DNA from: Deroplatys truncata
Lineage: Eukaryota > Arthropoda > Insecta > Mantodea > Mantidae
Assembly: GCA_030765065.1 (NCBI GenBank)
Contig: CM060989.1
Coordinates: 64,060,001 to 64,124,000, forward strand
DNA: 64,000 nt
Direction of reading: 5' to 3'
The notes beneath the pieces are model-generated. The model ran no database searches, was not told the origin of the DNA, and was given only the letters and a program-made list of their open reading frames with translations. A program made the position numbers and the translations under genes. This document shows positions 1,849 through 25,173 of the stretch, piece after piece; within the stretch, counting starts at the first letter, position 1, and each line of letters opens with the position of its first letter.

Positions 1849-1913
1849 AGTAGGGTAGATTTAGCGGTCCTGAAACAGTTAATTTATGCATGGCTATTCA
1901 TATGCAAATGAGC

Positions 1914-1958
1914 TCCCCCACCTCCTCCCTCCCCCACCTCCTCCCTCCCCCTCCCCCC
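1914..1958 (-). promoter_or_regulatory. G-quadruplex-capable tract near left tip
   Basis: The minus strand has successive runs of three or more G separated by short spacers, 65-110 bp from the element end. The mirror tract is at 18271-18315. The potential to form G4 is seen; a role is inference. Confidence 0.5.
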
Positions 1959-2279
1959 GCTGTGCCTTGGTAGTTTTAGCTGCACCTGCGGTCGTAAATC
2001 ATGTTGAGTACAATGGAGGCTTGACAGTTAGGTAATTAAGGCTGTCAATCAACTGTCAAAACGAACAAAGGGGTCATAAATTTAAGGTTCTGTAACAAAG
2101 GCGAGATGTTTTTCCTACCCATTCCACATCCGGCCACTTCTGCACCTGGTCAGTTACCCGCCCCCACTTCCATTGTGTGTGTCGAACACGTGGCATACTC
2201 GTTCCACTAGCTTTTAACAAAAGAACAATGCTTGCCCTTCAGCTGTCAAAATGAACAAAGCCCATGATGAATTAGGGTT

Positions 2280-2819
2280 GTAACAAAGCCTGACCCTTTC
2301 CATTGTGTAAGAGATTCTATTGTGTGTGCCTTTCTATTGTCCGATGCAAGCATTCTTTAGAAAGACCACCTGGCAACCCAATAACAAAGCCTGACCCTTT
2401 CCATTGTGTAAGAGATTCTATTGTCCTTGGCAAGGCTAGTTTAGAAAGACACCTGCAGCGTTCCCATTGTTTGGCCACCTGCTAGTTTAACAAAAGAATT
2501 CGAGGGTTGCTTTATACTCGTCCTGTCCTTGTTTGTGTGAAAGAGAGAGAAACTTGTTTACCAACTCTGCGTGACGTCATACTTTAGAAAGACACCTGCT
2601 CCATAACAAAACCTGACCCTTTCCATTGTGTAAGAGATTCTATTGTGTGTGCCTTTCTATTGTTCTGTGCAAGGCTAGTTTAGAAAGACACCTGCAGCGT
2701 TCCCATTGTTTGGCCACCTGCTAGTTTAACAAAAGAATTCGAGGGCTGCTTTATACTCGTCCTCTCCTTGTTTGTGTGAAAGAGAGAGAAACTTGTTTAC
2801 CAACTCTGCGTGACGTCAG
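2280..2819 (+). repeat. Tandem 239-bp repeat with CRE-like sites
   Basis: A block containing GCAGCGTTCCCATTGTTTGG recurs 239 bp apart (about 2456 and 2695). Each copy contains TTTATACTCGTCC and ends in TGACGTCA (about 2572 and 2812), the palindromic CRE/ATF site. Partial copies of the CTGACCCTTTCCATTGTG part precede it. Regulatory function is inference. Confidence 0.6.
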
Positions 2820-2990
2820 GTCGGCCATCATGATTTTGCCTGAGGGAGTTCTCCCCGATGTTTTACGACCTCCTACGAATATATCCGAGCATAGTTAACA
2901 AGCATTCTGTTTCAGCCAACGACTCCGAAAAGCATCTAATATACATTTCATTACGTGCATTAAACCTCTGAGTGATATCCATAGATCGGT

Positions 2991-4931
2991 GTTCGATTCT
3001 TACTGTAATCAAAAGTTTATTGCTAATGAGAAATTAATGATTGATATTATTATATCATTACCCTAATTAATAAAAAGGCGTTCAGAGAATTCTAGCTCGA
3101 GTCTTACCAAGTGAAACTCTAACGCGTAATAACTATTAAACTATGCAAGGTCAGATTAAAAAAATGTATTTATCAATTATAATTTAATTTTTTATACATC
3201 ATCATCCTAATCAATGAAAGACCGTTCAGAGGACCCTAGTTCGAATCTTACCCAACGAAACTCTAATGCTTAATAAATATTAAACTATGCAAGGTCAGAT
3301 TAAAATGCATTTAACAAATATAATTTAATTTTTATATATCATTACAATAATTAATAAAAGGGTGTTCAGTGGGTTCTAGATCGAATCTCTAATGCTTAAT
3401 AAATATTAAACTATGTGAGTATTGCGCGGTCAGATTAAAACGTGTTTAACGAATATAATTTAATTAATGAAACGGTGTTCAGGGGGGATCCTAGATCGAA
3501 TCTGCGAAACTCTAATGCTTAATAAATATTAAACTATGCACGACCAGATTAAAATGTGTTTAACAAATATAATTTAATATACACGACATTACAATGTTTA
3601 ACGATCTGTATTCTTAGGAACCAGTGGTCCATAGTTCGAATCCAACCCTGTGAAACGCTATAATAACTATTAAGTTATTGAAGCAGCGGGCGGTCGGATT
3701 AAAATTGCATTTAACAACTATAATTATTTATATTAAACCCTGATGCATACTAGATATCTCGATGCCTAGACAACATTCTTTCTTCTTCTCCTCTCTTTTT
3801 CTTTCTATCTATCTCTTTCTTTCTCCACGACTTGTACACATTCAGGCGTTCACATATACACGAGCGCTTGTACACACATCAGCAAACATACACTGGTGCA
3901 CGCATGCAAGCACATACACACACGCAAGCACATACACACACGCATATACATACACCTGCACATACACACACATGCACATACATACAACAGTACACACACA
4001 CACATACACCAGTACACACACGCATTCACGCACCTCATGCGTATACATACATACACCAGTGCTCTTACACTCACACATACATATACATGGACAAACACAC
4101 ACACACGTGCAAGCACATATGACTGTTCACTTACACCCAACAGCACCAACCAACACAGGCACACACCAACTCACGCGCATGTCCTGAATGAAAAGAGACA
4201 AAATGATGCAATAAAAACTAATTATAGCTCGGGATGCAAGGCTCCATTTACGATTGCTCGAAACTGGTCTTCTAATAACTTCAAAACTAATTAAACTAAA
4301 GACAGTAAATAAACTTTATTACTTTTATGCCATTAGCTCGTTTCTTGTGCATGTATATTAGAGTCTGGGTGTCATGGGTTCGATCCTTAACTTTAAATCT
4401 CAATTATCTCAGGAACTAGCAGGGATTAAGGTGCGGACCAAAGCACGATTTTTAGTTCCTACGATGAACAATTAATGCTTTATATAATTTCCAATCAGTG
4501 TCCCTAGCTCGAATCCCGATCTTTCAGTGACTTCCTTAATTTTCCACTGTGTTCTAGAATATATCACTTAGATCAATGTTGCAACTGCATACAGGTCTTT
4601 TAAACACATCAAACTAATATTATAAATAATTTTGTTTCTGGCGTTCTGAGTTCGAATACCGATTCAATGAAGTTTACTTATAAATTTAATAACAGTAAAT
4701 AATTAAGACAAAGGTACCAAATAAACCTATTACGTTTATGTCATCAGATAATATCTTGCGGGTGTATATTAGGGTACCTGACGTCCAGGGTTCGATCCTT
4801 AAGTTTAAATCTCAATTATCGCAGAAACTAGCAGAGATAGAGCTGTAGACGAAAGCATGTTTGATAGCTCATACAATGAACAATTAATGCTGTATATAAT
4901 TTTCAATCAGTTGCCCCTAGTTCGAACCCCG
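2991..4931 (+). repeat. Array of tRNA B-box-like motifs, left arm
   Basis: Eleven variants of the motif RGNTCGAATCC occur at about 2991, 3094, 3238, 3378, 3493, 3633, 4377, 4506, 4649, 4789 and 4919. Spacing is 103-144 bp within each cluster. They lie in degenerate AT-rich tandem units that also share TTAATAAATATTAAACTATG or CTCAATTATC. GGTTCGANTCC is the known TFIIIC-bound B box. No complete cloverleaf could be folded around them, so they are not tRNA genes. Confidence 0.6.
3840..4130 (+). repeat. CA-rich degenerate microsatellite, left arm
   Basis: Imperfect (CA)n/(CATA)n sequence is preceded by a CT-rich tract. It accounts for most of the length difference between arms. Long open frames here are by-products of the repeat. 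Confidence 0.8.
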
Positions 4932-5094
4932 ATCTTTCAATGACTTCACTGATTTTTCTCTGTACTCTAGAATACATCACTTAGATTGATGCTTTAACTG
5001 CATGCAGCTGTGTGAGAGAGAGCGAGAGAGGGAGAGAGAGAGAGCGAGAGAGGGAGAGGAAGTGAAACAAGCAGGGATAGAAGTGCTGAGGGCC

Positions 5095-5336
5095 TCTGCG
5101 CATGCGTAGCAAGAGATGATGTCATTGGCTGCAATAATCACGTGACGTGTAAGCATCACAGCCATGATGACGTGCAGGCATCGCCTGGAGGGGGTTTAGA
5201 TCCCTATATAAACAGACATCTGTCCCATGTTAGAACTGTTGTGTACTTATTAACTTTACATTCAAGTTTTAAAGAGCTTTAAAAGCAAAGTGAGCTACAG
5301 ACCGTCTACACATTCAGCACATATCAAAACGGGGCA
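5095..5336 (+). promoter_or_regulatory. Promoter and 5' leader of the arm genes, left
   Basis: A consensus TATA box (TATATAA, 5205-5211) is preceded by an NRF1-like TGCGCATGCG, an inverted CCAAT box (CATTGG), CACGTGACGT, a second TGACG, and farther upstream a GAGA-rich tract (5011-5060). Transcription would begin near 5235, leaving a leader of about 100 nt before the ATG at 5337. The density of sites just upstream of the TATA box and the correctly placed ATG and splice donor make this a credible polymerase II promoter. Confidence 0.65.
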
Positions 5337-6633
5337 ATGCAAGGTGAATTTTAAATAACTATACAAAATCACTGTTGGCTTTTACAATACATTTAATTTT
5401 ATTTAAACGTTACAGTACATGAAAGACGATTCGTTACAAAGAGCATCATATTTTCTAATCTGTGCTTTACATTCACATGGATTTCACTGCATACTCTTCT
5501 TCAGTTCACATGATTTTCGCCACACATTCTTCTTACATAAACATTCATACGATTTTCCCCTCATTCTTTGTTTCACTATACACTCACATGATTTCCTCTA
5601 CTCATTCTTTATTCCACCTACAGGTTCATGCTCTGTTAACATTCACATGACTTTCTCTTCACATTCTTTGCTTCCATTAACATTCACATGATTTTCGCCA
5701 CACCTTCTTCTTACATAAACATTCATACGACTTTACCCTCATTCTTTGTTTCACTATACACTCACATGATTTCCTCTACTCATTCTTTGTCCCCCCTGCA
5801 GGTTCATGCTTTGTTAACATTCACACGACGTTCTCAGCTCATTTCTCTATTGACATTCACATGATCTTCTCAACACCTTCTTCTTACATAAACATTCATA
5901 CGACTTTACCCTCATTCTTTGTTTCACTATACACTCACACGATTTCCTCTACTCATTCTTTGTCCCCCCTGCAGGTTCATGCTTTGTTAACATTCACACG
6001 ACGTTCTCAGCTCATTTCTCTATTGACATTCACATGATCTTCTCAACACATTCTTCTTACTTAAACATTCATACGATTTTCCCCCTCATTCTTTGTTTCA
6101 CTATACATTCGCACACGATTTCCTCTACTCATTCTTTGGTTCTCTGCTGGCTCATCTTCAATGAACATTCACATGATTTCTGTACTTATTCTTTATTTCT
6201 CTACACCCTCATAGGCTTACTTACAAAACATACACACCCTAGTTCTTCAACTTGAATAATGTAGTGAAAATAATAATTCATGACAATGTCTGTTACAGAT
6301 TGTTTAGCTGATAGACTTAACAAGATGGTGGAAGAGCGTAGTTTCCTACCGACTCGCCGAGTTCAAGATCTCGAAATAGGTCTTATCTATGAGATAAAGT
6401 CCTTAAAGAGAGTTCAAACAAGATATGGTACCAGGATCGTATCTTCGCTGGAGGATTGTCAAGTGTTCTTGCCAGAGCGCTATAATTCGTTAACCGATCA
6501 AGAGATTGCAGAAATACCTGGGAGCGTATACCTACAGTATAATGGCATGGCAGAGAAGGGGAAATTTAAGACATGTAAATTGTCTTTTTTACATGCAAAG
6601 AAGGTGCGTAGAAGTGTCAAACTTAAGTATTGA
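5337..6633 (+). CDS. Spliced 113-aa protein, possible OB-fold type
   Basis: Exon 1 is only ATG CAA G (5337-5343) and ends at donor AAG|GTGAAT. A 955-bp intron ends at TGTCTGTTACAG (6298), and exon 2 runs 6299-6633 with the frame kept, so the protein begins Met-Gln-Asp. An unspliced version starting at the ATG at 6280 would give 117 aa. The middle contains KSLKRVQTRYGTRIV, LEDCQVFLPERYNSLT and SVYLQYNG, which look like consecutive beta strands; the tail is Lys/Arg-rich. It resembles small single-strand-binding OB-fold proteins in layout only; I do not recognise a named family. AATAAA lies at 6666. An identical protein is encoded in the right arm. Confidence 0.6.
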
Positions 6634-7138
6634 ATGTTCTCCCATTTCACAATGAAAAATTCATAAATAAAACAACTGACTCATTGATATTACATATAAA
6701 GATACAAAAGATGCATATTATAGAATTTTATAAAAAAAAATTAACGAAATTACAATATCACATGCTTGAGTTTAATTATATCTAGCGCATTGAAATAACT
6801 CTAAATATCCGAATGTTTATACAAATCTTTGTGCTTCTTTTTACATGTGCCATATGCTTCATTTTACATGTATCATAACAAAAAATGTAATTCTTTCCAG
6901 GTTGCCTTTACTTGACCAAGATAGTTTTCTAAGACTTTCATTGTGCAATGTTTCAGGGTGTGCAATAAGAGGAAGAAGAAGAAGAGGAATAGCCTACTAC
7001 CATGCAATGGATGCTGACGCTATTGGAGGGTGGAATACCTACAAGAAACATTTCGGCAAGAAACGGGTGCTGAGACATCTACATCACCGAAACACATTAA
7101 GACAGGATCCTTATATAACATTACAGGGTATACAATGA
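5337..7138 (+). CDS. Alternatively spliced 62-aa Arg-rich protein
   Basis: The same leader exon (ATG CAA G) can join acceptor CAATGTTTCAG at 6956 to an exon at 6957-7138, also in frame, giving a protein starting Met-Gln-Gly. Its N-terminus has the run RGRRRRG, followed by AYYHAMDADAIGGWNTYKKH and a His/Arg-rich stretch (RVLRHLHHRN). Size and charge suggest a nucleic-acid-binding or core-type protein; no family was recognised. The intron would be 1,613 bp and skips the 113-aa exon and its AATAAA. The next AATAAA is at 7356. Without splicing, no sensible start precedes this exon. Confidence 0.5.
5466..6200 (+). repeat. 173-bp tandem repeat inside the intron, left
   Basis: Units recur at about 5700, 5873 and 6046, each built from shorter pieces of the type CATTCACATGATTTTC and CATTCATACGACTTT spaced about 28-30 nt. 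The array occupies most of the intron between the leader exon and the first acceptor. Open frames in it reflect the absence of stops in the unit. Confidence 0.75.
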
Positions 7139-7686
7139 AAAAAATACGGTCAATTTTGTATACAATTAAATGCATGGCTGAGAGTTAGCTCGAACTAGTC
7201 TCCCTATATTCACTGAAATTAAGCATTGTGAGCAATAATTTAAGTGACTGTGAAAATACTTTAAGTAATGGTGAAATTTGTATCCTAAAAGACTTGAGCC
7301 CTGTATACATTAACAGCATTAAGGCTGTTTGCCACGCTGGAATACAAATTATGAAAATAAAAAGACTTTCATTTAAATAATAAGGAAATTTGCATAACCT
7401 GCTGTTACAAGTGTAATGACATATACAGAAACAATGAGTCGGACGAGAAAGTGATGGAAATGTAAGATAAATAATAACAATAAAAGAATTAAGGTATGTT
7501 TTTACATAGTGTTTTTATTCATTAAAAATCCTTGTATTCCTAATGAAAAATAAATCATTACAATGATTAGTTTAAGTTATATCACAATGATCAAAAAGAG
7601 AACCGTCTTTAGATGCATTACTCGATCTTAAGTCAGAGCACCAAAAAATGACAAATCACGGCTTCTCCATTTTAGATGTGGTGTCA

Positions 7687-7860
7687 CTATTCAGGTAAAT
7701 TCATGTAACACAGCAGGTTGAGTATGCAGATCTGTGGTCCTAAATGGGTGAAACAGAGTCTTATCCAGCTTAACAGTCTTGAGATCTCACCATCAGAAAG
7801 TCGAATCACAAGCCTTCTCCACTCGCTGAGCACAGGTTTAACAACAGCATTCTCTTCACC
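7687..7860 (-). CDS. Candidate coding exon near inner TIR edge, left
   Basis: Reading the minus strand, an acceptor-like ATCGTCTCAG is followed by an open frame of 57 codons ending in TAG. It encodes VLSEWRRLVIRLSDGEISRL and then a hydrophobic, Cys-containing stretch (THLGPQICILNLL). Composition looks protein-like rather than random. Farther upstream on this strand another open stretch (about 8009-7926) encodes VLRPFSDKVIPSNQLSESDF and could be an earlier exon. No start codon or complete gene model could be fixed. The right-arm copy differs by one Cys-to-Tyr change. Confidence 0.4.
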   Translation of the reverse strand, partial: GEENAVVKPVLSEWRRLVIRLSDGEISRLLSWIRLCFTHLGPQICILNLLCYMNLPE

Positions 7861-8049
7861 CTGAGACGATGTAAAGTATATAAATATGCAATACTGCGCT
7901 AAATACGTATGATGCTCAACTTAAATATATTCACTAGGAAATCAGATTCAGACAGCTGATTAGATGGAATAACTTTGTCACTGAAGGGTCGCAGAACGTT
8001 CCTATAGAACAATCACTGGAAAAAATCAAGAGTGAAAGGACCTTTTAAT

Positions 8050-8092
8050 GACATTTTTATTATTATTATTATTATTATTATTCACTGATCTA
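8050..8092 (+). repeat. ATT microsatellite, left arm
   Basis: A run of ATT units; the right arm has about two units fewer. Confidence 0.85.
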
Positions 8093-8160
8093 ATAAAGAA
8101 GATATTCGCATCCTAATATGAGGAATCTTTCTAACTCTTTCATGGTTTTGCAAATGCTAA

Positions 8161-8733
8161 TCACGCTATAAAACCACCCAGCTTTAAATCCTGAATAATG
8201 TCGTTAATCGCATCGGAAAAGTCAATTTTATCTGGTGTATGAAGCATCATGAGTACCCTTAGCATGTTTACCAAATCATTAGGATCGGTGTAGCGGTATA
8301 GCATCTCCTCTGTATTCGCTTTGGATATATCTTCTAATCTAGGTGATTTGACACTAGTATGCTTGCTTTCATTGGTGTGTTTATTCAGAGCTTGCTCATT
8401 CAAAGAAACTGCTGTCATTGGTTCATCAGTGGTAGCTCTTGACGTTATTACAGGGTCGCTTGAACTGGTTCCAAGTACGGTACATCTTGAATCCCACTCT
8501 TCGGGACTTGAGAAGATTTCAGGATCTCGTTTGGGTGTTGTAGTCAATGCACAGCTGGCCTTTGCTTTATAGCATCGTCTCCTATGTTGCTTAAGCCTTG
8601 AAATTGTCCTGTTTTTTAAAGTTCTATTACATATGCAGCACTTAACAAAGCGATTACTCCCCCCTTGGGAAATATACGAAAAATCAAGATTCTCGTAAAT
8701 TGACTGTAATTGTCCGTCTTTGTGAGTGTTCAT
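8161..8733 (-). CDS. BED-like zinc-finger protein, 190 aa
   Basis: The first ATG on the minus strand is at 8733. Residues about 30-50 hold CCICNRTLKNRTISRLKQH followed by RRRC, giving C-x2-C ... H-x4-C spacing as in BED-type fingers of transposases and their domesticated descendants. The rest is Ser/Thr-rich and probably disordered, ending with an acidic/hydrophobic tail (DAINDIIQDLKLGGFIA). There is no transposase catalytic domain. It lies in the unique centre, pointing into the left arm, and its stop is only 31 bp from the arm boundary. A role in DNA binding or regulation of the element is inference. Confidence 0.55.
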   Translation of the reverse strand: MNTHKDGQLQSIYENLDFSYISQGGSNRFVKCCICNRTLKNRTISRLKQHRRRCYKAKASCALTTTPKRDPEIFSSPEEWDSRCTVLGTSSSDPVITSRATTDEPMTAVSLNEQALNKHTNESKHTSVKSPRLEDISKANTEEMLYRYTDPNDLVNMLRVLMMLHTPDKIDFSDAINDIIQDLKLGGFIA

Positions 8734-8739
8734 GCTCAA

Positions 8740-9046
8740 GCAGTATATATAAACTAGTCAGTGTATAATGTAGATGTTGAATTCGTATACGATAACACGA
8801 GACTGAGTTATTTTTTAACATTTATGTATTTATATATGTACTCAGGTTTTGATGCATACAAACAGCCATGTCCGAATTAGACTAAGCAAAATATTGTAGC
8901 ATTTCCGCATAATAGTTGTAATTCCGTTAATTATAACTATCTCATTAAGCACACGCAGATTCAAGTAGCTAGAAACGGATTCATAGAGGTAAGAGTACAA
9001 GTTTTCTTGATAGTTAGCACAGAAAATGCATGAGTTAAGGGAGATA
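8740..9046. other. Unassigned spacer of central region
   Basis: AT-rich sequence between the BED-like gene and the minisatellite. A TATATATA on the minus strand (8753-8744) is too close to the ATG at 8733 to be a convincing TATA box. Nothing else was recognised. Confidence 0.4.
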
Positions 9047-10994
9047 CTGGTCATTTTCCCTTTGCAGGTCACCTTTTTTTCCCTTTGCTGGCCACATTTT
9101 CCCCTTTGCTGGCCACCTTTTTCCCTTTGCAGGTCACGTTTTTTCCCTCTTCTGGTCCCATTTTTCCCTTTACTGGTCACCTTTTTTCCCTTTGCTGTCA
9201 CATTTTTCCCTTTGCTGGTCACATTTTTCCCTTTGCTGGTCACATTTTTTCCCTTTGCTGGTCACTTTTTCCCTTTGCAGGTCGCATTTTTCCCTTTGCT
9301 GGTCACATTTTTCCCTTTGCTGGTCACCTTTTCCCTTTGCAGGTTACGTTTTTCCCTCTTCTGGTCCCATTTTTCCCTTTACTGGCCACCTTTTTCCCTT
9401 TGCTGATCACATTTTTCCCTTTGCTGGTCACGTTTTTCCCTTTGCTGTCACATTTTTTTCCCTTTGTTGGTCACCTTTTTTCCCCATTGCTTGTCACGTT
9501 TTTCCCTTTTCTGGTCACCTTTTTCCCTTTCCTGGTCACCTTTTTCCCTTTGCTGGTCACCTTTTTCCCTTTGCTGGTCACCTTTTTCCCTTTCCTGGTC
9601 ACCTTTTTCCCTTTGCAGGTCACCTTTTTCCCTTTCCTGGTCACCTTTTTCCCTTTGCTGGTCACCTTTTTCCCTTTCCTGGTCACCTTTTTCCCTTTGC
9701 TGGTCACCTTTTTCCCTTTCCTGGTCACCTTTTTCCCTTTGCTGGTCACCTTTTTCCCTTTCCTGGTCACCTTTTTCCCTTTGCTGGTCACCTTTTTCCC
9801 TTTGCTGGTCACCTTTTTCCCTTTGCTGGTCACCTTTTTCCCTTTGCTGGTCACCTTTTTCCCTTTCCTGGTCACCTTTTTCCCTTTCCTGGTCACCTTT
9901 TTCCCTTTCCTGGTCACCTTTTTCCCTTTCCTGGTCATCTTTTTCCCTTTCCTGGTCACCTTTTTCCCTTTGCTGGTCACCTTTTTCCCTTTGCTGGTCA
10001 CCTTTTTCCCTTTCCTGGTCACCTTTTTCCCTTTGCTGGTCACCTTTTTCCCTTTGCTGGTCACCTTTTTCCCTTTCCTGGTCACCTTTTTCCCTTTCCT
10101 GGTCACCTTTTTCCCTTTCCTGGTCACCTTTTTCCCTTTGCTGGTCACCTTTTTCCCTTTGCTGGTCACCTTTTTCCCTTTCCTGGTCACCTTTTTCCCT
10201 TTGCTGGTCACCTTTTTCCCTTTCCTGGTCACCTTTTTCCCTTTGCTGGTCACCTTTTCCCTTTCCTGGTCACCTTTTTCCCTTTGCTGGTCACCTTTTT
10301 CCCTTTCCTGGTCACCTTTTTCCCTTTGCTGGTCACCTTTTTCCCTTTCCTTGTCACCTTTTTCCCTTTGTTGGTCACCTTTTTCCCTTTCCTGGTCACC
10401 ATTTTCCCTTTCCTGGTCACCTTTTTCCCTTTCCTGGTCACCTTTTTCCCTTTCCTGGTCACCTTTTTCCCTTTGCTGGTCACCTTTTTCCCTTTGCTGG
10501 TCACCTTTTTCCCTTTCCTGGTCACCTTTTTCCCTTTGCTGGTCACCGTTTTCCCTTTCCTGGTCACCTTTTTCCCTTTGCTGGTCACCTTTTTCCCTTT
10601 CCTGGTCACCCTTTTCCCTTTCCTGGTCACCTTTTTCCCTTTCCTGGTCACCTTTTTCCCTTTGCTGGTCACCTTTTTCCCTTTCCTGGTCACCTTTTTC
10701 CCTTTCCTGGTCACCTTTTTCCCTTTCCTGGTCACCTTTTTCCCATTCCTGGTCACCTTTTTCCCTTTCCTGGTCACCTTTTTCCCTTTCCTGGTCACCT
10801 TTTTCCCTTTGCTGGTCACCTTTTTCCCTTTCCTGGTCACCTTTTTCCCTTTCCTGGTCACCTTTTTCCCTTTCCTGGTCACCTTTTTCCCTTTGCTGGT
10901 CACCTTTTTCCCTTTCCTGGTCACCTTTTTCCCTTTCCTGGTCACCTTTTTCCCTTTGCTGGTCACCTTTTTCCCTTTGCTGGTCACCTTTTCC
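9047..10994 (+). repeat. Minisatellite of about 93 units of 21 bp
   Basis: The unit is CACCTTTTTCCCTTTSCTGGT, with S being G or C in two intermingled variants. The first 450 bp are more diverged and include length changes; the remainder is very homogeneous. Because 21 is divisible by three, all frames stay open for hundreds of codons on both strands. The minus strand reads as Lys-rich heptads (KGKKVTR or EKGDQER). I treat these frames as by-products, since there is no codon bias beyond the repeat and the frames switch with indels. Confidence 0.95.
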
Positions 10995-11182
10995 CCTGAA
11001 TGGTTTACATGATAGGCAAGTCAAGAACATTGACATGAAACAGTTTTCCACTAAGTTCACATCTAAAGTCGCTTTCAAAGCCTAACATATGAATAGGCTG
11101 TGAGCATTCTTGTTTCATCCTCTCTAGCTTGACGGCTAAAATAAAATAAATCGCTCTTAATGTATATACGCTAATTAGAAAG

Positions 11183-11190
11183 TATAAAAG
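11183..11190 (+). promoter_or_regulatory. TATA box upstream of PLA2-like relic
   Basis: TATAAAAG lies 136 bp before the first recognisable coding segment of the relic, on the same strand. A donor-like CTAAGGTGGTT and an acceptor-like GGTTACATAG lie between, so a short 5' intron is possible. Confidence 0.4.
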
Positions 11191-11318
11191 AACTATCCTG
11201 AATAAAAATCGATTAGTATAACGTGAGAGCTAAGGTGGTTAAGCTCGCAAGAGGTTTCGGTTTAATTAACTCTCTCACTAGCCTGCAATCATTGAAGTAC
11301 ATTTACCTGGTTACATAG

Positions 11319-12048
11319 GCTGAGGAACTGTGGTAAAGCTAGAGAAAAATTAAAGATAGGAGACCCTGGAATCATTCCGTTAGACGATTCGTGTAATCTT
11401 AGCGGCATTGCCAACGCTCAGCATAAGGTCTCTGCTTCGAGAAACATTGCTGCCAAGATCTTACTGAAACGACTTGGAAAAGCGTGCAATCTGATGTTAC
11501 ATTAGGTGAAAAACTTGGCAGCGTGACTAGTAACAGCAATTATGAAGGGAAAGGTAGCTCCAGGTGCAGTAACCATGAAGAAGAAACGAGGAGGATTTCT
11601 ACCTCTCATACCAATTATTGCAGCTCTAGGCGCTGCTGCTGGAGGTGCAGCCAAAATTGCCTCAGCAGTAAATAAGAAAAAGGCAGCAGATAAACAACTT
11701 GCCGAAATGATGAGGAATAAGAGAGAAATTGAGAGAAAGGTATCTGTTGGCGGAGGGTCCAAAAAGAAGAAACGAGGAGGATTTCTACCACTCATACCAA
11801 TTATTGCAGCACTAGGAGCCGCCGCTGGAGGTGCATCACAAATTGCTACAGCTGTAAATACGAAAAAAGCTGCAGATAAACAACTTGCTGAAATGATGAG
11901 ACGTAACAGAGAAATTGAAGCAAGAGGGAGAGGTTTTCGAGTGAAGAAGAATAAGGGAAGAAACACAAAAACGAAGAGGAGACAGAGCCTGAAAGGGAAT
12001 TCAAAAAACTCTGGCAGAGGACTATACTTGTCCCGCAAAAAACATTGA
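11319..12048 (+). pseudogene. Decayed parvovirus-type PLA2-like / X-like gene
   Basis: An open segment from about 11319 to a stop at 11503 contains KIGDPGIIPLDDSCNLSGIA, resembling the core of the parvoviral phospholipase A2 family. The next recognisable piece (SDVTLGEKLGSV) is in another frame, and the first frame resumes before the ATG at 11542, so two compensating frameshifts interrupt the gene. The positions expected to hold the calcium loop (here NCGKAREKL) and the catalytic His-Asp pair (here Ser-Gly) are changed, so enzymatic activity is not expected. The intact 168-residue C-terminal part (11542-12048) carries a tandem duplication of KKKRGGFLPLIPIIAALGAA with an Ala/Gly-rich continuation and a basic helix, then an Arg/Lys-rich tail. 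Such Lys-rich hydrophobic modules are known in adenovirus protein X and Polinton/adintovirus-like elements. Viral ancestry is inference from both halves. Confidence 0.6.
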
Positions 12049-12346
12049 GTAACATAGACCTTGACTTGTATGCCCGACGTTTAAAGATTCCTCATATTAG
12101 GATGCGAATATCTTCTTTATTAGATCAGTGAATAATAATAATAATAATAAAAATGTCATTAAAATGTCCTTTCACTCTTGATTTTTTCCAGTGATTGTTC
12201 TATAGGAACGTTCTGCGACCCTTCAGTGACAAAGTTATTCCATCTAATCAGCTGTCTGAATCTGATTTCCTAGTGAATATATTTAAGTTGAGCATCATAC
12301 GTATTTAGCGCAGTATTGCATATTTATATACTTTACATCGTCTCAG

Positions 12347-12520
12347 GGTGAAGAGAATGCTGTTGTTAAACCTGTGCTCAGCGAGTGGAGAAGGCTTGTG
12401 ATTCGACTTTCTGATGGTGAGATCTCAAGACTGTTAAGCTGGATAAGACTCTGTTTCACCCATTTAGGACCACAGATCTGCATACTCAACCTGCTGTATT
12501 ACATGAATTTACCTGAATAG
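12347..12520 (+). CDS. Candidate coding exon near inner TIR edge, right
   Basis: Mirror of the 57-codon exon in the left arm, after the same acceptor-like TCTCAG. A TGT-to-TAT difference changes Cys to Tyr close to the C-terminus. The gene would read from the centre outward, downstream of the PLA2-like relic; whether they belong to one transcript is unknown. Confidence 0.4.
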   Translation, partial: GEENAVVKPVLSEWRRLVIRLSDGEISRLLSWIRLCFTHLGPQICILNLLYYMNLPE

Positions 12521-13068
12521 TGACACCACATCTAAAATGGAGAAGCCGTGATTTGTCATTTTTTGGTGCTCTGACTTAAGATCGAGTAATGCATCTAAAG
12601 ACGGTTCTCTTTTTGATCATTGTGATATAACTTAAACTAATCATTGTAATGATTTATTTTTCATTAGGAATACAAGGATTTTTAATGAATAAAAACACTA
12701 TGTAAAAACATACCTTAATTCTTTTATTGTTATTATTTATCTTACATTTCCATCACTTTCTCGTCCGACACATTGTTTCTGTATATGTCATTACACTTGT
12801 AACAGCAGGTTATGCAAATTTCCTTATTATTTAAATGAAAGTCTTTTTATTTTCATAATTTGTATTCCAGCGTGGCAAACAGCCTTAATGCTGTTAATGT
12901 ATACAGGGCTCAAGTCTTTTAGGATACAAATTTCACCATTACTTAAAGTATTTTCACAGTCACTTAAATTATTGCTCACAATGCTTAATTTCAGTGAATA
13001 TAGGGAGACTAGTTCGAGCTAACTCTCAGCCATGCATTTAATTGTATACAAAATTGACCGTATTTTTT

Positions 13069-14870
13069 TCATTGTATACCCTGTAATGTTATATAAGGAT
13101 CCTGTCTTAATGTGTTTCGGTGATGTAGATGTCTCAGCACCCGTTTCTTGCCGAAATGTTTCTTGTAGGTATTCCACCCTCCAATAGCGTCAGCATCCAT
13201 TGCATGGTAGTAGGCTATTCCTCTTCTTCTTCTTCCTCTTATTGCACACCCTGAAACATTGCACAATGAAAGTCTTAGAAAACTATCTTGGTCAAGTAAA
13301 GGCAACCTGGAAAGAATTACATTTTTTGTTATGATACATGTAAAATGAAGCATATGGCACATGTAAAAAGAAGCACAAAGATTTGTATAAACATTCGGAT
13401 ATTTAGAGTTATTTCAATGCGCTAGATATAATTAAACTCAAGCATGTGATATTGTAATTTCGTTAATTTTTTTTTATAAAATTCTATAATATGCATCTTT
13501 TGTATCTTTATATGTAATATCAATGAGTCAGTTGTTTTATTTATGAATTTTTCATTGTGAAATGGGAGAACATTCAATACTTAAGTTTGACACTTCTACG
13601 CACCTTCTTTGCATGTAAAAAAGACAATTTACATGTCTTAAATTTCCCCTTCTCTGCCATGCCATTATACTGTAGGTATACGCTCCCAGGTATTTCTGCA
13701 ATCTCTTGATCGGTTAACGAATTATAGCGCTCTGGCAAGAACACTTGACAATCCTCCAGCGAAGATACGATCCTGGTACCATATCTTGTTTGAACTCTCT
13801 TTAAGGACTTTATCTCATAGATAAGACCTATTTCGAGATCTTGAACTCGGCGAGTCGGTAGGAAACTACGCTCTTCCACCATCTTGTTAAGTCTATCAGC
13901 TAAACAATCTGTAACAGACATTGTCATGAATTATTATTTTCACTACATTATTCAAGTTGAAGAACTAGGGTGTGTATGTTTTGTAAGTAAGCCTATGAGG
14001 GTGTAGAGAAATAAAGAATAAGTACAGAAATCATGTGAATGTTCATTGAAGATGAGCCAGCAGAGAACCAAAGAATGAGTAGAGGAAATCGTGTGCGAAT
14101 GTATAGTGAAACAAAGAATGAGGGGGAAAATCGTATGAATGTTTAAGTAAGAAGAATGTGTTGAGAAGATCATGTGAATGTCAATAGAGAAATGAGCTGA
14201 GAACGTCGTGTGAATGTTAACAAAGCATGAACCTGCAGGGGGGACAAAGAATGAGTAGAGGAAATCATGTGAGTGTATAGTGAAACAAAGAATGAGGGTA
14301 AAGTCGTATGAATGTTTATGTAAGAAGAAGGTGTTGAGAAGATCATGTGAATGTCAATAGAGAAATGAGCTGAGAACGTCGTGTGAATGTTAACAAAGCA
14401 TGAACCTGCAGGGGGGACAAAGAATGAGTAGAGGAAATCATGTGAGTGTATAGTGAAACAAAGAATGAGGGTAAAGTCGTATGAATGTTTATGTAAGAAG
14501 AAGGTGTGGCGAAAATCATGTGAATGTTAATGGAAGCAAAGAATGTGAAGAGAAAGTCATGTGAATGTTAACAGAGCATGAACCTGTAGGTGGAATAAAG
14601 AATGAGTAGAGGAAATCATGTGAGTGTATAGTGAAACAAAGAATGAGGGGAAAATCGTATGAATGTTTATGTAAGAAGAATGTGTGGCGAAAATCATGTG
14701 AACTGAAGAAGAGTATGCAGTGAAATCCATGTGAATGTAAAGCACAGATTAGAAAATATGATGCTCTTTGTAACGAATCGTCTTTCATGTACTGTAACGT
14801 TTAAATAAAATTAAATGTATTGTAAAAGCCAACAGTGATTTTGTATAGTTATTTAAAACTCACCTTGCAT
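13069..14870 (-). CDS. Spliced 62-aa Arg-rich protein, right-arm copy
   Basis: Leader exon 14870-14864 joins an exon at 13250-13069 in frame, as in the left arm. The intervening intron is 1,613 bp. The coding sequence is unchanged relative to the left copy. The donor here is AAG|GTGAGT, a full consensus. Confidence 0.5.
13574..14870 (-). CDS. Spliced 113-aa possible OB-fold protein, right-arm copy
   Basis: Leader exon 14870-14864 joins exon 13908-13574 in frame; the translated product equals that of the left arm. With the consensus donor GTGAGT this copy should splice better than the left one. Identical products from both arms show that both remain under constraint or have been homogenised. 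Confidence 0.6.
14007..14741 (-). repeat. 173-bp tandem repeat inside the intron, right
   Basis: Mirror of the left intronic array, with the same three unit boundaries. Confidence 0.75.
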
Positions 14871-15112
14871 TGCCCCGTTTTGATATGTGCTGAATGTGTA
14901 GACGGTCTGTAGCTCACTTTGCTTTTAAAGCTCTTTAAAACTTGAATGTAAAGTTAATAAGTACACAACAGTTCTAACATGGGACAGATGTCTGTTTATA
15001 TAGGGATCTAAACCCCCTCCAGGCGATGCCTGCACGTCATCATGGCTGTGATGCTTACACGTCACGTGATTATTGCAGCCAATGACATCATCTCTTGCTA
15101 CGCATGCGCAGA
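14871..15112 (-). promoter_or_regulatory. Promoter and leader of the arm genes, right
   Basis: Mirror of the left promoter: TATATAA at 15002-14996, upstream CRE-like, CACGTG, CCAAT and NRF1-like sites, then a GA/CT-rich tract at about 15147-15196. The two promoters point toward each other across the element. Confidence 0.65.
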
Positions 15113-15275
15113 GGCCCTCAGCACTTCTATCCCTGCTTGTTTCACTTCCTCTCCCTCTCTCGCTCTCTCTCTCTCCCTCTCTCGCTCTCTCTCACACAGC
15201 TGCATGCAGTTAAAGCATCAATCTAAGTGATGCATTCTAGAGTACAGAGGAAAATCAGTGAAGTCATTGAAAGAT

Positions 15276-17238
15276 CGGGGTTCGAACTAGGGGCAACTGA
15301 TTGAAAATTATATACAGCATTAATTGTTCATTGTATGAGCTATCAAACATGCTTTCGTCTACAGCTCTATCTCTGCTAGTTTCTGCGATAATTGAGATTT
15401 AAACTTAAGGATCGAACCCTGGACGTCAGGTACCCTAATATACACCCGCAAGATATTATCTGATGACATAAACGTAATAGGTTTATTTGGTACCTTTGTC
15501 TTAATTATTTACTGTTATTAAATTTATAAGTAAACTTCATTGAATCGGTATTCGAACTCAGAACGCCAGAAACAAAATTATTTATAATATTAGTTTGATG
15601 TGTTTAAAAGACCTGTATGCAGTTGCAACATTGATCTAAGTGATATATTCTAGAACACAGTGGAAAATTAAGGAAGTCACTGAAAGATCGGGATTCGAGC
15701 TAGGGACACTGATTGGAAATTATATAAAGCATTAATTGTTCGTCGTAGGAACTAAATATCGTGCTTTGGTCCGCACCTTAATCCCTGCTAGTTCCTGAGA
15801 TAATTGAGATTTAAAGTTAAGGATCGAACCCATGACACCCAGACTCTAATATACATGCACAAGAAACGAGCTAATGGCATAAAAGTAATAAAGTTTATTT
15901 ACTGTCTTTATTTTAATTAGTTTTGGAGTTATTAGAAGACCAGTTTCGAGCAATCGTAAATGGAGCCTTGCATCCCGAGCTATAATTAGTTTTTATTGCA
16001 TCATTTTGTCTCTTTTCATTCAGGACATGCGCGTGAGTTGGTGTGTGCCTGTGTTGGTTGGTGCTGTTGGGTGTAAGTGAACAGTCATATGTGCTTGCAC
16101 GTGTGTGTGTGTTTGTCCATGTATATGTATGTGTGAGTGTAAGAGCACTGGTGTATGTATGTATACGCATGAGGTGCGTGAATGCGTGTGTGTACTGGTG
16201 TATGTGTGTGTGTGTGTACTGTTGTATGTATGTGCATGTGTGTGTATGTGCAGGTGTATGTATATGCGTGTGTGTATGTGCTTGCGTGTGTGTACTTACA
16301 TGTGCGTGTGTGTATGTGCTTGCATGCGTGCACCAGTGTATGTTTGCTGATGTGTGTACAAGCGCTCGTGTATATGTGAACGCCTGAATGTGTACAAGTC
16401 GTGGAGAAAGAAAGAGATAGATAGAAAGAAAAAGAGAGGAGAAGAAGAAAGAATGTTGTCTAGGCATCGAGATATCTAGTATGCATCAGGGTTTAATATA
16501 AATAATTATAGTTGTTAAATGCAATTTTAATCCGACCGCCCGCTGCTTCAATAACTTAATAGTTATTATAGCGTTTCACAGGGTTGGATTCGAACTATGG
16601 ACCACTGGTTCCTAAGAATACAGATCGTTAAACATTGTAATGTCGTGTATATTAAATTATATTTGTTAAACACATTTTAATCTGGTCGTGCATAGTTTAA
16701 TATTTATTAAGCATTAGAGTTTCGCAGATTCGATCTAGGATCCCCCCTGAACACCGTTTCATTAATTAAATTATATTCGTTAAACACGTTTTAATCTGAC
16801 CGCGCAATACTCACATAGTTTAATATTTATTAAGCATTAGAGATTCGATCTAGAACCCACTGAACACCCTTTTATTAATTATTGTAATGATATATAAAAA
16901 TTAAATTATATTTGTTAAATGCATTTTAATCTGACCTTGCATAGTTTAATATTTATTAAGCATTAGAGTTTCGTTGGGTAAGATTCGAATTAGGGTCCTC
17001 TGAACGGTCTTTCATTGATTAGGATGATGATGTATAAAAAATTAAATTATAATTGATAAATACATTTTTTTAATCTGACCTTGCATAGTTTAATAGTTAT
17101 TACGCGTTAGAGTTTCACTTGGTAAGACTCGAGCTAGAATTCTCTGAACGCCTTTTTATTAATTAGGGTAATGATATAATAATATCAATCATTAATTTCT
17201 CATTAGCAATAAACTTTTGATTACAGTAAGAATCGAAC
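15276..17238 (-). repeat. Array of tRNA B-box-like motifs, right arm
   Basis: Mirror of the left array with the same eleven motifs, for example GGGTTCGAACCC-type at the inner end and AGTTCGAATCC around 16597. The motif cores are retained. Confidence 0.6.
16077..16389 (-). repeat. CA-rich degenerate microsatellite, right arm
   Basis: About 22 bp longer than in the left arm, with an extra tract around 16290-16310. Confidence 0.8.
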
Positions 17239-17409
17239 ACCGATCTATGGATATCACTCAGAGGTTTAATGCACGTAATGAAATGTATATTAGATGCTTT
17301 TCGGAGTCGTTGGCTGAAACAGAATGCTTGTTAACTATGCTCGGATATATTCGTAGGAGGTCGTAAAACATCGGGGAGAACTCCCTCAGGCAAAATCATG
17401 ATGGCCGAC

Positions 17410-17949
17410 CTGACGTCACGCAGAGTTGGTAAACAAGTTTCTCTCTCTTTCACACAAACAAGGAGAGGACGAGTATAAAGCAGCCCTCGAATTCTTTTGT
17501 TAAACTAGCAGGTGGCCAAACAATGGGAACGCTGCAGGTGTCTTTCTAAACTAGCCTTGCACAGAACAATAGAAAGGCACACACAATAGAATCTCTTACA
17601 CAATGGAAAGGGTCAGGTTTTGTTATGGAGCAGGTGTCTTTCTAAAGTATGACGTCACGCAGAGTTGGTAAACAAGTTTCTCTCTCTTTCACACAAACAA
17701 GGACAGGACGAGTATAAAGCAACCCTCGAATTCTTTTGTTAAACTAGCAGGTGGCCAAACAATGGGAACGCTGCAGGTGTCTTTCTAAACTAGCCTTGCC
17801 AAGGACAATAGAATCTCTTACACAATGGAAAGGGTCAGGCTTTGTTATTGGGTTGCCAGGTGGTCTTTCTAAAGAATGCTTGCATCGGACAATAGAAAGG
17901 CACACACAATAGAATCTCTTACACAATGGAAAGGGTCAGGCTTTATTAC
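17410..17949 (-). repeat. Tandem 239-bp repeat with CRE-like sites, right arm
   Basis: Mirror of 2280-2819; TGACGTCA occurs twice. One T/C difference from the left arm is visible near 17944. Confidence 0.6.
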
Positions 17950-18270
17950 AACCCTAATTCATCATGGGCTTTGTTCATTTTGACAGCTGAAGGGCAAGCA
18001 TTGTTCTTTTGTTAAAAGCTAGTGGAACGAGTATGCCACGTGTTCGACACACACAATGGAAGTGGGGGCGGGTAACTGACCAGGTGCAGAAGTGGCCGGA
18101 TGTGGAATGGGTAGGAAAAACATCTCGCCTTTGTTACAGAACCTTAAATTTATGACCCCTTTGTTCGTTTTGACAGTTGATTGACAGCCTTAATTACCTA
18201 ACTGTCAAGCCTCCATTGTACTCAACATGATTTACGACCGCAGGTGCAGCTAAAACTACCAAGGCACAGC

Positions 18271-18315
18271 GGGGGGAGGGGGAGGGAGGAGGTGGGGGAG
18301 GGAGGAGGTGGGGGA
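18271..18315 (+). promoter_or_regulatory. G-quadruplex-capable tract near right tip
   Basis: GGGGGGAGGGGGAGGGAGG and continuing G-runs, 65-110 bp from the right end. The G-rich strand reads toward the tip at both ends. Confidence 0.5.
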
Positions 18316-18380
18316 GCTCATTTGCATATGAATAGCCGTGCATAAATTAACTGTTTCAGGACCGCTAAATCTACCCTACT

Positions 18381-18386
18381 TATACC
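18381..18386. repeat. Target-site duplication TATACC, right
   Basis: Exact copy of 1843-1848, immediately after the last base of the right arm. Confidence 0.88.
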
Positions 18387-18675: not shown

Positions 18676-21174
18676 TTCTCACACTTGCCAGACGTTCCAG
18701 GAGCTGTGACAGTATAACATCGGCGTACGCACCCTTCAGCCCTCACGCCTGAGGAGGTGACTACCACAGGATCTCCTACTCAGCAACTCCGATGATTCCA
18801 ATCACTAATTACACTAATTTTCTCTCCGAGTATTACTTTTAATCGTTATGTAATATTTTATCCATATTCCATAGCTAAAAGGAGCCACTTTGGTCTCCCT
18901 TGAGTGTTAATAAACAGTGTTGTGTTCTATTATACTCAAAGTTCTGCAAAGTATGTATGCTGACTGATAAAAATAAATTTAAAAAAATGTGAAACGAGAA
19001 ATGCGCTGCAACAGTGGTAACATCGGTCTCTCAGACCGTGGCGCTCTATTTTTCTGTGATATTGCCTATGTTGATTATATCACAACCTTGAACGCCGAGT
19101 TATGTGTCACATGAACCTTTGTGTTTGATGTGAAAACGTGGCTTTGTAATTGTTGCTACTTATTGTTACAAATTTATCAGGAAGGCTTCGTAGACCGGTG
19201 TTACTGTTAACGTAAGTATATTTTGCGTACTTCTGATCTCTTATTTTACAAAAAAAAGTCGTCTTCTAGTAAATTACTAGTAATAAGTTCACTCTCTTAG
19301 TCAACAATCACCGTTTTTATTTAAGTTTGAAATAAAGTGTATCGGAACTGTGCGCAGTTAAATCGCGACAAAATGAATTAATACGATACATTTATCGTTC
19401 AATAATGTGACAACCGTTTGGTTTTAGATGCTAATATTTGATATGCTTTCCTTAGCACCCCTTATTAATCGGAAAAAATTACAACGTAAAGAAAACCTGC
19501 GAGGGTTTTTGGGTTCGATTCCACATGGAATCTCCCATGCACAGTATTTGGACAGGTCCAATCTTCTGGGAAGGCTGTTGATTGAGTTATAACAGAGCGG
19601 CAGCTGCGTACACAACGGATGATAAAGTACATCAGCACGGTTCCGAGCGAATGTTTGCTCCACGCAAGGGGAATACTGCCAGCCGTTCTCCCCTCCACCC
19701 TACACTACCTTCTCCTCTGCGTTTCTGCCTCTTCACGACGAAAAAATCGACCTGTACTCTGCTTCTATAAGTTTTCTTCAGGGTCTAAGCATCACTGCTA
19801 TAGCACAGGGCAGGTATTGTAAAGCCTTACACGAGTGTGCTTCCAATGAGAAGAAGAATAACCCAAACGTAGCACAACATTAAAGAGCGAAGCAAGAAAA
19901 GCGCGAGATAAACGGGAAAGGTTCTTCAGAGCAACGTTAGAAATACGATCATGCCCAGGAACTTTTCTCGATATCAGAGTGATGAGAAACTAGCGCACTT
20001 CACTGGGAGAAATGAAGGCTCTGTTCTAACTGTATAACACTTTAGCGACTAACCATGGCATAACTCAAAAGGAGAAGTTTTTTTTCTAGTTCCTACAACC
20101 GGCCCTGCAAAGAAAAAAGAAAATCTGGTAGTAAGATAGAGAAATAATTGCAATAAATAGTTTCCGCATATTAAGTCACTGTATAATGTAATAAGCCTGC
20201 GTTGACAGATTTGTCCGTATAGAAAAAGGTAATTAGCAAGCCATGTAAGGAAGACATTAGTAACAGCCGAATGCAGAACACGTTAACTTAAAGATTCTTA
20301 GAATGCAGTTAGAGTTAAGTTCAGTACGTTTGCAAAGTCACGTATACAGAAATTTTATAAAAGAGAAAGGTAAATGAAATTCAGATTCGGGGAGGTTCCG
20401 CATAGTAACAAGAGGCGCATATGTAGAGTTCTTTGTATTGACCCGCACGAGAGGGAACCTTGGTGGGGTAGTTCTAAAGTGGGCGGGACTTAAGTTAATA
20501 AAAGAACGTGTATTGCTAAAATTAGCGTCTTTATTTTCTTTCATGTACACCGTAGGGACTTACAGTCTTTTATGGTGATCGGACGTTCGTAGCACCTAAG
20601 ACCGCACTGGATTATCAGTTAGTTAACGGTAGCCGCAAGGGGTTTTGCCGGTAAGCATTTTAGCGACTTACGGCAAATTACGCTTCTAATTTCTTTATTG
20701 CGGAAGTAGCTATTTCAGACTGTAAAACTGATACTGCAGAAGTTAGCAGGTATAATAAGTCAGTTATAGTTTCGAGTGCTACAATCCATAATCAGTTTCG
20801 TTCTTTATCTTCAAACGGGCGGCAACTTACTTCAATAGCTCGAGTATTAGATCACATTAAATTTCTCAGTCAATTTAAACTGGTGTTATCCTTTCGCACT
20901 ATGCCCACGCATACCCTGAGAGAAATATCTCATAACCAACCACTGTAGTAGCTGGCAGCGGAATCAACAACAGACGTCGTAATTAAAAGTATTCGTCGCC
21001 ATTCTTATACACCATCAATGGTTACATCATTTCATGAATTTGATTTCTAAGTCTTAGTACGGTTTAAATTTCATCAGGGTACATACCTAAACAGCCTTTT
21101 GAAAAGCAACAAGCTTCACTGTAAACCAGAAAGAAAACGGTACTTAACTGCTTATTTTAGCAAATAACGTTTTT
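18676..21174. other. Unassigned intergenic sequence
   Basis: No convincing gene. Near 19503-19530 GGGTTCGATTCCACATGG resembles a tRNA-type B box and may mark an old SINE. Short open frames here show no domains. Confidence 0.4.
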
Positions 21175-21984
21175 ACTTTCTCTACCACGTATAATAAGTA
21201 GGTGAAGTGTTGATTCTGCCCAAAAATTTGATACTGAGATTTCACCGGAAATACAGGTTTTGAGGCCCCCTGAAAAAAAGCACTTTTAGAAAAAGTGTGT
21301 CTGTTTGTGAACAACATAACTCAAAAACAAAAAGTCGGATAAATATCAAACTTGGTATTTAGGTTCAGTATTTTTCAAAGATGCGACACGAAGGTTTTCA
21401 AGAAAATCCCTCAATTCAGACTACCCTTTACATGGCACACTTTTCGAAAATTTTGATTTTTGATTAAAATATATATTTAAGATATTTTCATGACAATATA
21501 ATCTATATCTTAAATTTTCTGGGAATCTTCCCATAAATCCTCTTCGTTTTGAATGACTTTCGCATAACTGGCAAATCGTAGGAGATATACAAAAACATTT
21601 TACACAAAAGTGAAGGGCCCTTTAAAACATACAATTTATGGTATATACTTTTTTTTTGAGTGAACCATTTCCGAGATATTCCTTGTCATTTATTTGAAGT
21701 TTCCAATAGTTATCTTTTTCTCAAATCCGAATTTGTTATTCGTTTTCTTGTTTCGTGGACATACAAAGAGAATGGAATGCTCCACATACGAGGCTACCAG
21801 CTCTTAAAATATTTGACTATCACTTAAAACCTATATTCCTCTTGCACCCACAAGAAAATAAGCGATAGTTTCTGCTGCAAATGTTTATCTCGAATAACAT
21901 GAAGTAGATTGAGAATAAGCGTTTGTAAAAATAGTTTGTACAAGAGTAGAGAAAGTCACGTGAATGTAACACATCAGATTTTTT
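21175..21984 (+). repeat. Family A repeat copy
   Basis: Starts ACTTTCTCTACCACGTATAA and ends at CACATCAGATTTTTT. The central TG microsatellite is almost absent and the copy is diverged. Confidence 0.8.
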
Positions 21985-22442
21985 ACTTTCAAGAATTAGA
22001 ATATAAACTTTTTATGTTTTGCCAATGTTTTAAACTACAATGAAAGCATTTTCTACACTTGTAATACCTATATGCGACTCTCATTAGCATGATCCTGTAA
22101 CCTAAGCGTATAGGTACGTGAGCTATATAAGCTTTTCTTTTTGTTTTTTGTGATATAATGAACAAAGAACCAATTATTGTTAAACGCATTTCGGTTTAGG
22201 CTGAAGACGCTCAGATGTTATGTAATCTCAAAGTGACGTTCAACAACGCCTTGTGCCAACAAGCAGCACCATAGTACCAAAATGTTTTCCTTCTAACTTC
22301 TCCCAACTTTCTTAGAAGTCTCTCGATACCACTAGCAACTAGTTATTCCCAAAAGGCCAAAGTTTCCTAAAATGAAACGCTCCGCCGTTACTTGTTCTGT
22401 TACAGTCAGTTTGAAATACATCGGCAGCAAGATTAATTATGC
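21985..22442. other. Unassigned spacer
   Basis: Nothing recognised between two family A copies. Confidence 0.35.
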
Positions 22443-24219: not shown

Positions 24220-24476
24220 ATTTCTACTTCAATTCGAAATGTAGTATACTTCATAAGTTATGTTTGATAAGGTCAAATATTATACAATTTCCTACGTACT
24301 TCAGCAAAACTATTTTTAGTTGTAGTGTATTTAACAAAACTATAACCTCAAATTGATTGCGATTCTAGTACTATAGGAAAGTACTGAGCTATTTAATGGA
24401 ATATTCAATATTATTTTTGTATACATAAGACTTTATATTACAAAAATGTAAACACAGCTGTTAAAATATTTTTCGA
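24220..24476. other. Unassigned AT-rich spacer
   Basis: Nothing recognised. Confidence 0.3.
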
Positions 24477-24868: not shown

Positions 24869-24877
24869 TACCTATAT

Positions 24878-25173
24878 TGTAACGACACTTCGTGGATGTC
24901 GAACCACGACCGGGAAGTTGCATAAGGTTGCGTAAAGTTTAAAAAAGTGTAGCAATGAGGGCGACAGGTTTCTGAGTTGTCCCACGAAAACGTATTTATT
25001 GGCCACTTAAATGCGTCAGTTCTCTCAGTTTATTAATATAATACACTTGGTTTTTATAGAAACCGTTGTTCTTCTCCGAGCGACACCATGGTACCTTCCG
25101 CCTCTACCCTCTGAGCCTATTCCCGCCTCTGTTGTCTAAAACCCCTGGGCTAACCGCCCCCAGGGTCGCTACA
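24878..25173 (-). mobile_element. Possible solo LTR
   Basis: On the minus strand it begins TGTAGCGACCC and ends GTCGTTACA (TG...CA), with TATAAAAACC and two AATAAA motifs in the expected order. Flanking bases ATAC/ATAT match only approximately as a duplication. No internal retrotransposon region is attached. Confidence 0.45.

Follow-up and report, generated by a model that had tools for sequence, protein, structure and literature searches.

Polintons, or Mavericks, are described as having terminal inverted repeats (TIRs) of several hundred base pairs and 6-bp target duplications (excerpt of PMC12747079), an (AGT)2 terminal motif with TIRs of 46–1,447 bp (mean 402) in intact vertebrate Mavericks (PMC8097293), and a gene for a protein-primed polymerase (excerpt of PMC4028283). 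Giant TIR length alone is not unique, because the TIRs of cryptophyte Polinton-like viruses range from hundreds to thousands of base pairs (excerpt of PMC12220804). Here we describe a 16,532-bp element in a 64,000-nucleotide stretch of the Deroplatys truncata genome (assembly GCA_030765065.1, contig CM060989.1, positions 64,060,001–64,124,000; hereafter the window), which shares 6-bp duplications, AGT...ACT ends and gene remnants with the adintovirus-like Polintons/Mavericks (PMC8097293; excerpt of PMC4028283) but lacks their PolB and integrase. The several-hundred-bp TIRs of Polintons are exceeded both by this element (6.3 kb) and by its full-length relatives (2.0–2.2 kb). Comparison with those relatives makes it probable that the element is a non-autonomous, giant-TIR derivative of the Polinton/Maverick (adintovirus-like) family, born by fold-back copying and moved by full-length relatives.

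The boundaries and arms of the element are as follows.

1843–1848, no strand: left copy of the target duplication, TATACC, adjoining the left end
1849–18380, no strand: whole element, 16,532 bp, ends AGTAGGG...CCCTACT
1849–8130, plus strand: left arm (6,282 bp), putative copy of the right end, from the arm alignment with polarity from full-length relatives
1849–3923, plus strand: outer portion of the arm, matching the ~2-kb TIR found in full-length relatives, with its mirror image at the right end
12083–18380, minus strand: right arm (6,298 bp), the family's native right end, shrunken, from the arm alignment and the relatives
18381–18386, no strand: right copy of the target duplication, TATACC, adjoining the right end
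62341–62900, plus strand: related 3' tail of a long interspersed nuclear element (LINE) without the insertion, a paralogous empty site

Aligning the two arms revealed 14 substitutions, together with three gaps in CA and ATT microsatellites, and several blocks of internal tandem repeats lie within the arms. Twice the left-arm length is 76% of the element, the remainder being a 3,952-bp loop that holds a 190-aa open reading frame (ORF), a minisatellite and gene remnants. The terminal 19-mer occurs twice in the window, against an expectation of 0.01 (≤3 mismatches). These coordinates bear out the original prediction of a 16.5-kb unit with 6.3-kb arms, about three quarters of its length, and a clean TATACC duplication. 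Both flanks resemble the LINE 3' tail at 62463–62528 and 62565–62869 (82% and 75%), and when they were joined through a single TATACC, a MAFFT alignment to that tail spanned the insertion point, where the tail has one hexamer, similar to TATACC and not identical; BLAST gave no alignment for the same comparison. The tail belongs to a GC-rich, two-ORF LINE at 57861–62431 encoding an endonuclease and a reverse transcriptase.

To place the element in its genome, we searched 4.29 Gb in 818 contigs with its outer 500 bp, which listed 43 matches (40 of 2,171 first-look candidates were scored), many of them inverted pairs 10–19 kb apart. Ten inverted pairs were fetched as separate halves together with the ends of seven more, these 17 being picked as well-paired copies with similar ends and unpaired matches being left out. 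Exact 6-bp duplications flank all 17 further elements (10 + 7), hence 18 of 18 with the window element, and the termini are AGTAGGG or AGTAGTAGGG in all 18, as anticipated from the Polinton/Maverick-type end bases and duplication size first noticed here. These elements revealed two structures. Three are full-length (E5, E7 and E8; 19.2–19.4 kb) with TIRs of 2,006–2,169 bp, whereas the TIRs of E2, E3, E4, E6, E9 and E10 measure 4,077–7,390 bp; E12 is a giant-arm element in which indels cut the continuous repeat to 1,044 bp.

The full-length elements carry what the giant-arm elements lack. In E8, profile matches above the Pfam cut-offs identify an rve integrase (7.5e-10), an A32-type ATPase (6e-7), a phospholipase PLA2 (1.3e-14) and a double-jelly-roll capsid protein (4.4e-110), with a pX match (2e-4) below cut-off and a protease-like ORF also encoded. 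The 1217-aa ORF of E8 is 97% identical over 748 residues to its counterpart in E7, which matches DNA_pol_B_2 at 3.7e-15, and 98% identical to that of E5. PolB, integrase, ATPase, PLA2-pX, protease and capsid genes were present in all three fetched full-length relatives, which therefore belong to the Polinton/Maverick (adintovirus-like) family, sharing with it PolB, rve integrase, A32 ATPase, protease and double-jelly-roll capsid protein. With tblastn, PolB and integrase were found in 3/3 full-length elements and in none of seven giant-arm elements (window, E2, E3, E4, E6, E10, E12), nor in E9; in the window element PolB gave no match at E 1 and rve integrase none. Since both were sought there and are absent, the element is not a full Polinton. 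No transposase match was found among the scanned ORFs of the window, which did not include every short ORF. Thus the further copies, the 6-bp duplications and the relatives with polymerase B and integrase to which the original prediction had looked for support all exist in this same genome, and its suggestion of a derived giant-TIR lineage of Polinton type is strengthened.

Both classes are abundant. A 30-mer at the inner arm end, used as giant-arm marker, has 657 + 654 = 1,311 genome sites at ≤3 mismatches (control 0). It occurs twice in the window element, E2, E3, E6 and E10, once in E12, and not in E4, E5, E7, E8 or E9; on one contig (C1), 54 of 71 listed one-mismatch sites form plus/minus pairs 2.6–5.6 kb apart. 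Because the marker is mostly present twice per element and its sites on that contig are mostly paired, a fair but rough estimate is roughly 650 giant-arm elements, as a marker count in which copies are not necessarily complete. The intact protease junction has 395 + 423 = 818 sites (control 0), again in copies not necessarily complete; E5, E7 and E8 each have one, E9 has two and the giant-arm elements have none. Searching with the 1217-aa ORF, 38 of 27,285 first-look candidates were scored, and all 38, the query included, were 97–100% identical over nearly the full length, 28 of them without an internal stop. Outside this genome, scans of viral contigs gave only one weak locus (L001), and no relatives were found in the general genome contigs or phages scanned.

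Although the gene content had been thought not to be that of a Polinton, that claim is overturned: the genes of the window element are Polinton content in ruins.

6855–8112, minus strand: mirrored right-half remnants in the left arm
8161–8733, minus strand: 190-aa ORF with a BED zinc finger match (0.03, below cut-off)
9054–10997, no strand: 21-bp minisatellite, ~92 copies, cutting into the ATPase remnant
10990–11208, minus strand: packaging-ATPase gene remnant, residues 1–72 of the E8 ORF, 52%, 2e-15 (tblastn)
11223–12048, plus strand: PLA2-pX gene, the PLA2 part with stops and frame changes, the pX part open and doubled
12039–12101, plus strand: protease gene start, which overlaps the end of pX and is truncated shortly after entering the arm
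12150–12320, plus strand: remnant of the relatives' 255-aa ORF, 61%, 1e-14
12338–12632, plus strand: double-jelly-roll major capsid protein gene remnants, 49–77%, 2e-24
12905–13163, minus strand: remnant of the relatives' 156-aa ORF, 30–45%, 1e-6

From the centre into the right arm the order is ATPase, pX, protease, 255-aa ORF, capsid protein and 156-aa ORF, as in E8, and the virus-type morphogenesis genes survive as remnants only (ATPase, PLA2-pX, protease start and capsid fragments). The ORF ending at 12048 matches the adenovirus core protein X profile (1.1e-9), and its closest relatives are PLA2+pX proteins (58 at E ≤0.01 among 2,276 candidates from a 5.8-billion-protein search), with a weaker match (1.6e-4) to a protein named as from an entomopoxvirus virophage. 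Its two pX repeats show a ratio of non-synonymous to synonymous change of 0.135 (P 3.8e-5) at a synonymous divergence of 0.46. As this divergence far exceeds that between elements, and as E10, E12 and the full-length copies have a single pX unit, the constraint would date from earlier working genes and not from this element. The PLA2 part is broken in all six giant-arm elements compared (E1, E2, E3, E6, E10, E12), whereas it runs uninterrupted for 218 residues in E7 and E9 and has one stop in E5. Over 21 residues, the ORF start at 12039–12101 shares 86–90% identity with five sites in E5, E7, E8 and E9, two of them in E9; in the window element, E2, E3, E6, E10 and E12 it is cut off at one and the same residue, a little way into the arm. 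In E8 its continuation matches Josephin (0.0005) and Peptidase_C5 (0.036), both below cut-off, and we take it to be the Polinton protease from these weak matches, its position and protease N-termini. The 190-aa ORF had no relatives in protein searches at E 0.01, and the minisatellite is open in several reading frames because its 21-bp unit is a multiple of three.

The order of these remnants gives the direction of copying. Outward from pX, the right arm passes through fragments of the 255-aa ORF of E8, the capsid protein and the 156-aa ORF before reaching the TIR, and the same remnants are mirrored in the left arm, whereas no right-half remnants were found at the left ends of E5, E7 and E8. 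Because the remnants follow the right-half order of the relatives, whose left ends lack them, the right arm represents the native end, from which the left arm was copied in inverted orientation; judged by this arrangement, one native terminus has been duplicated in inverted form at the opposite end.

A separate fold-back, E9, points to how such a duplication may arise. The left half of E9 is 99.3% identical to the first 7.56 kb of E5, and its right half is the same sequence inverted (7.39 kb); E9 as a whole is 98% palindrome. At its turn-round the strand reaches E5 position 7731 and returns to 7389, with a 2-bp overlap and a loop of ~340 bp. The turn-round sequence occurs once in the genome (≤3 mismatches), and E9 is flanked by an exact 6-bp duplication, GATACT. 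By its structure, E9 is a fold-back of an E5-type full-length element, as expected of a product inserted once; being single-copy, with exact ends and a fresh duplication, it would have been linear with two ends before insertion.

The two ends of each element also vary together. In six giant-arm elements compared over seven blocks of the inner arm, left and right arms differ by 0.07–0.32% within an element and by 1.2–2.1% between elements in 14 of 15 pairs. The terminal 30 bp (window 1849–1878) come in eight variants among the 18 elements, varying as a block, with one base difference in total within elements (in E6) against a mean of 6.75 differences between elements, a mean lowered by five copies picked through an exact 24-mer. 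Matched ends fit re-copying of one end from the other, and chromosomal gene conversion would fit too. Three terminal variants are common to elements of unlike structure, full-length-type and giant-arm (E4/E5, E6/E7, E9/E10), and may mark helper-satellite partnerships.

We infer that the lineage was born by fold-back during replication and has been moved by full-length relatives. The PolB of this family is, by family knowledge, protein-primed. Protein-primed strand-displacement replication would leave a single strand lacking the left end, the 3' end of which could fold back at a tiny homology and copy the right end, giving the same end on both sides. The PolB and integrase of full-length relatives would then replicate and insert the giant-arm molecule in trans, since the signals would still be present at both ends; such helper dependence is suggested by an element without PolB and integrase, by matching ends and by relatives that have both genes. 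At each cycle the long arms could pair as a panhandle and be re-copied jointly, which would keep them nearly identical. During adenovirus replication the ends of displaced single strands anneal to form panhandles, and initiation is aided by NFI and Oct-1 (excerpt of PMC12116113); for invertron plasmids panhandle-shaped intermediates have been suggested as the cause of long inverted repeats of flanking DNA (excerpt of PMC1864894).

Several observations weigh against this account. Part of the arm shows weak similarity (60–68%) to left subterminal repeats found in the full-length class, and the arm also has a 117-aa ORF that E5, E7 and E8 lack, so more than one step would be needed. No clear microhomology is present at the loop edges of the window element, whose two arms are no closer to each other (0.32%) than to the arms of its sister E2 (0.25–0.29%). 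For the outer 1 kb, only 7 of 11 elements have arms that resemble each other more than they resemble those of the nearest other element. The 1217-aa ORF of E8 gave no PolB profile match on its own, and the element is known here from its sequence alone, with free DNA, transcript and transposition not observed.

That the giant arms formed in the chromosome after insertion, through recombination or break repair of inverted elements, with gene conversion homogenising them and full-length relatives amplifying the product, is to our mind rather unlikely. Gene conversion could also yield alike arms and matching ends, and no replication intermediate was seen, but the single-copy fold-back E9 has exact ends flanked by a fresh 6-bp duplication, hence was linear with two ends before it inserted, and a chromosomal fold-back would not rebuild an outer terminus and a matching duplication at once. 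Still less probable is that giant arms are ancestral and the 2-kb-TIR elements derived: the giant-arm marker (1,311 sites, typically two per element) is as common in the genome as the full-length one (818 sites), yet the capsid-gene remnants within the arms are ordered as in the right half of full-length elements, and the PLA2 part, continuous in E7 and E9 and stopped once in E5, is interrupted in every giant-arm element compared, which contradicts that order of descent.

Foldback/Galileo elements have a P-element-type transposase, no viral genes and longer target duplications. They share very long, internally repetitive TIRs with our element, and the tandem-repeat blocks of the arms resemble a unit of that type with its own DNA transposase. 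The family of the window element differs in its 6-bp duplications (18/18) and its remnants of viral genes, and this identity is contradicted by the full-length relatives, which have PolB and an rve integrase; we give it almost no credence. An assembly artefact is just as improbable, for although palindromes are a known long-read error, each arm has its own substitutions and indels, the duplications vary by site and the structure recurs at many loci, and we dropped this explanation on those grounds. We thus retain fold-back copying of a full-length Polinton as the probable origin.

Two further features of the arms concern what the doubled end carries.

1901–1911, plus strand: octamer-type motif, TATGCAAATGA, ATGCAAAT, at offset 53 from the end
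6280–6633, plus strand: 117-aa arm ORF, family unassigned
13574–13927, minus strand: mirror copy of the 117-aa ORF
18318–18328, minus strand: mirror copy of the octamer-type motif

In giant-arm elements, all 13 copies of the 117-aa ORF that were read are open. Its variants comprise 7 synonymous changes over 75 sites and 10 non-synonymous changes over 276 sites, 3 of the 10 at the truncated end of E4, a pattern suggestive at most of constraint. It has no protein database relatives at E 0.01, and its predicted structure is uninformative (mean predicted local distance difference test score 41); we presume a likeness to small Polinton-associated ORFs, which no search supports. In 15 of the 18 elements the motif ATGCAAAT stands at offset 53 from both ends, the chance of an octamer within 100 bp being 0.00995 (computed post hoc). 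The block is absent from the other three (L034, L036, L038; F3–F5), including their left ends, yet these have exact 6-bp duplications. With three of 18 elements lacking the motif, we dropped it as an essential origin signal, and its presumed resemblance to adenovirus origins is a lead only.

Among known systems the closest likeness in form is to adenovirus incomplete particles, whose genomes, reportedly described by Daniell in 1976 with duplicated left ends, are said to be likewise short, defective and linear, with one end duplicated inverted. The copies here differ in being integrated, numerous and host-inherited, and are known from sequence, packaging not being among the evidence. By analogy, the element behaves as a defective genome of adenovirus type with a duplicated terminus, and it derives from Polintons. 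Invertron-type linear plasmids are also protein-linked linear replicons for which panhandles are proposed to make long inverted repeats, but they are mitochondrial and their repeats are flanking host DNA (excerpt of PMC1864894). Distinctive features here are a structure in which one end was copied onto the other, the loss of PolB and integrase alongside a copy number in the hundreds, and the occurrence of E9 as a fold-back in its own right. No non-autonomous Polinton or Maverick and no defective or miniature Polinton is named as such in the open-licence PMC papers searched (subscription papers lay outside the search), and excerpts of the papers that mention very long TIRs with Polintons describe no lineage of this kind, such wording in the excerpt of PMC12747079 concerning a giant virus.

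Elsewhere in the window, a dispersed repeat family of up to ~0.9 kb has many copies (1–520, 21163–26600, 36826–37763, 44731–48907, 52537–53471, 56141–56959), and the minus strand holds a GIY-YIG ORF at 38504–39289, which we take to be Penelope-like, and an ORF at 50474–51055 with a DDE_3 match slightly below cut-off.

It is possible, though we hold this only tentatively, that the giant-TIR elements have long persisted as satellites of full-length Polintons, forming a defective-interfering lineage, and that double-stranded RNA from their arms could feed host silencing. If so, the doubled right end would carry replication- or packaging-favouring features in addition to the 117-aa ORF (6280–6633), transcripts over the 6.3-kb arms would form long double-stranded RNA that could direct host small-RNA silencing at the whole family, and one fold-back accident would have founded both a virus parasite and a possible host defence. 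Adenovirus-like protein priming is the assumed replication route of Polintons, mainly on account of the polymerase they encode. Here one genome preserves apparent products of end copying in E9, in an amplified giant-arm lineage and in end sequences that change in step, so that the replication route and helper dependence of animal Polintons become testable from sequence.

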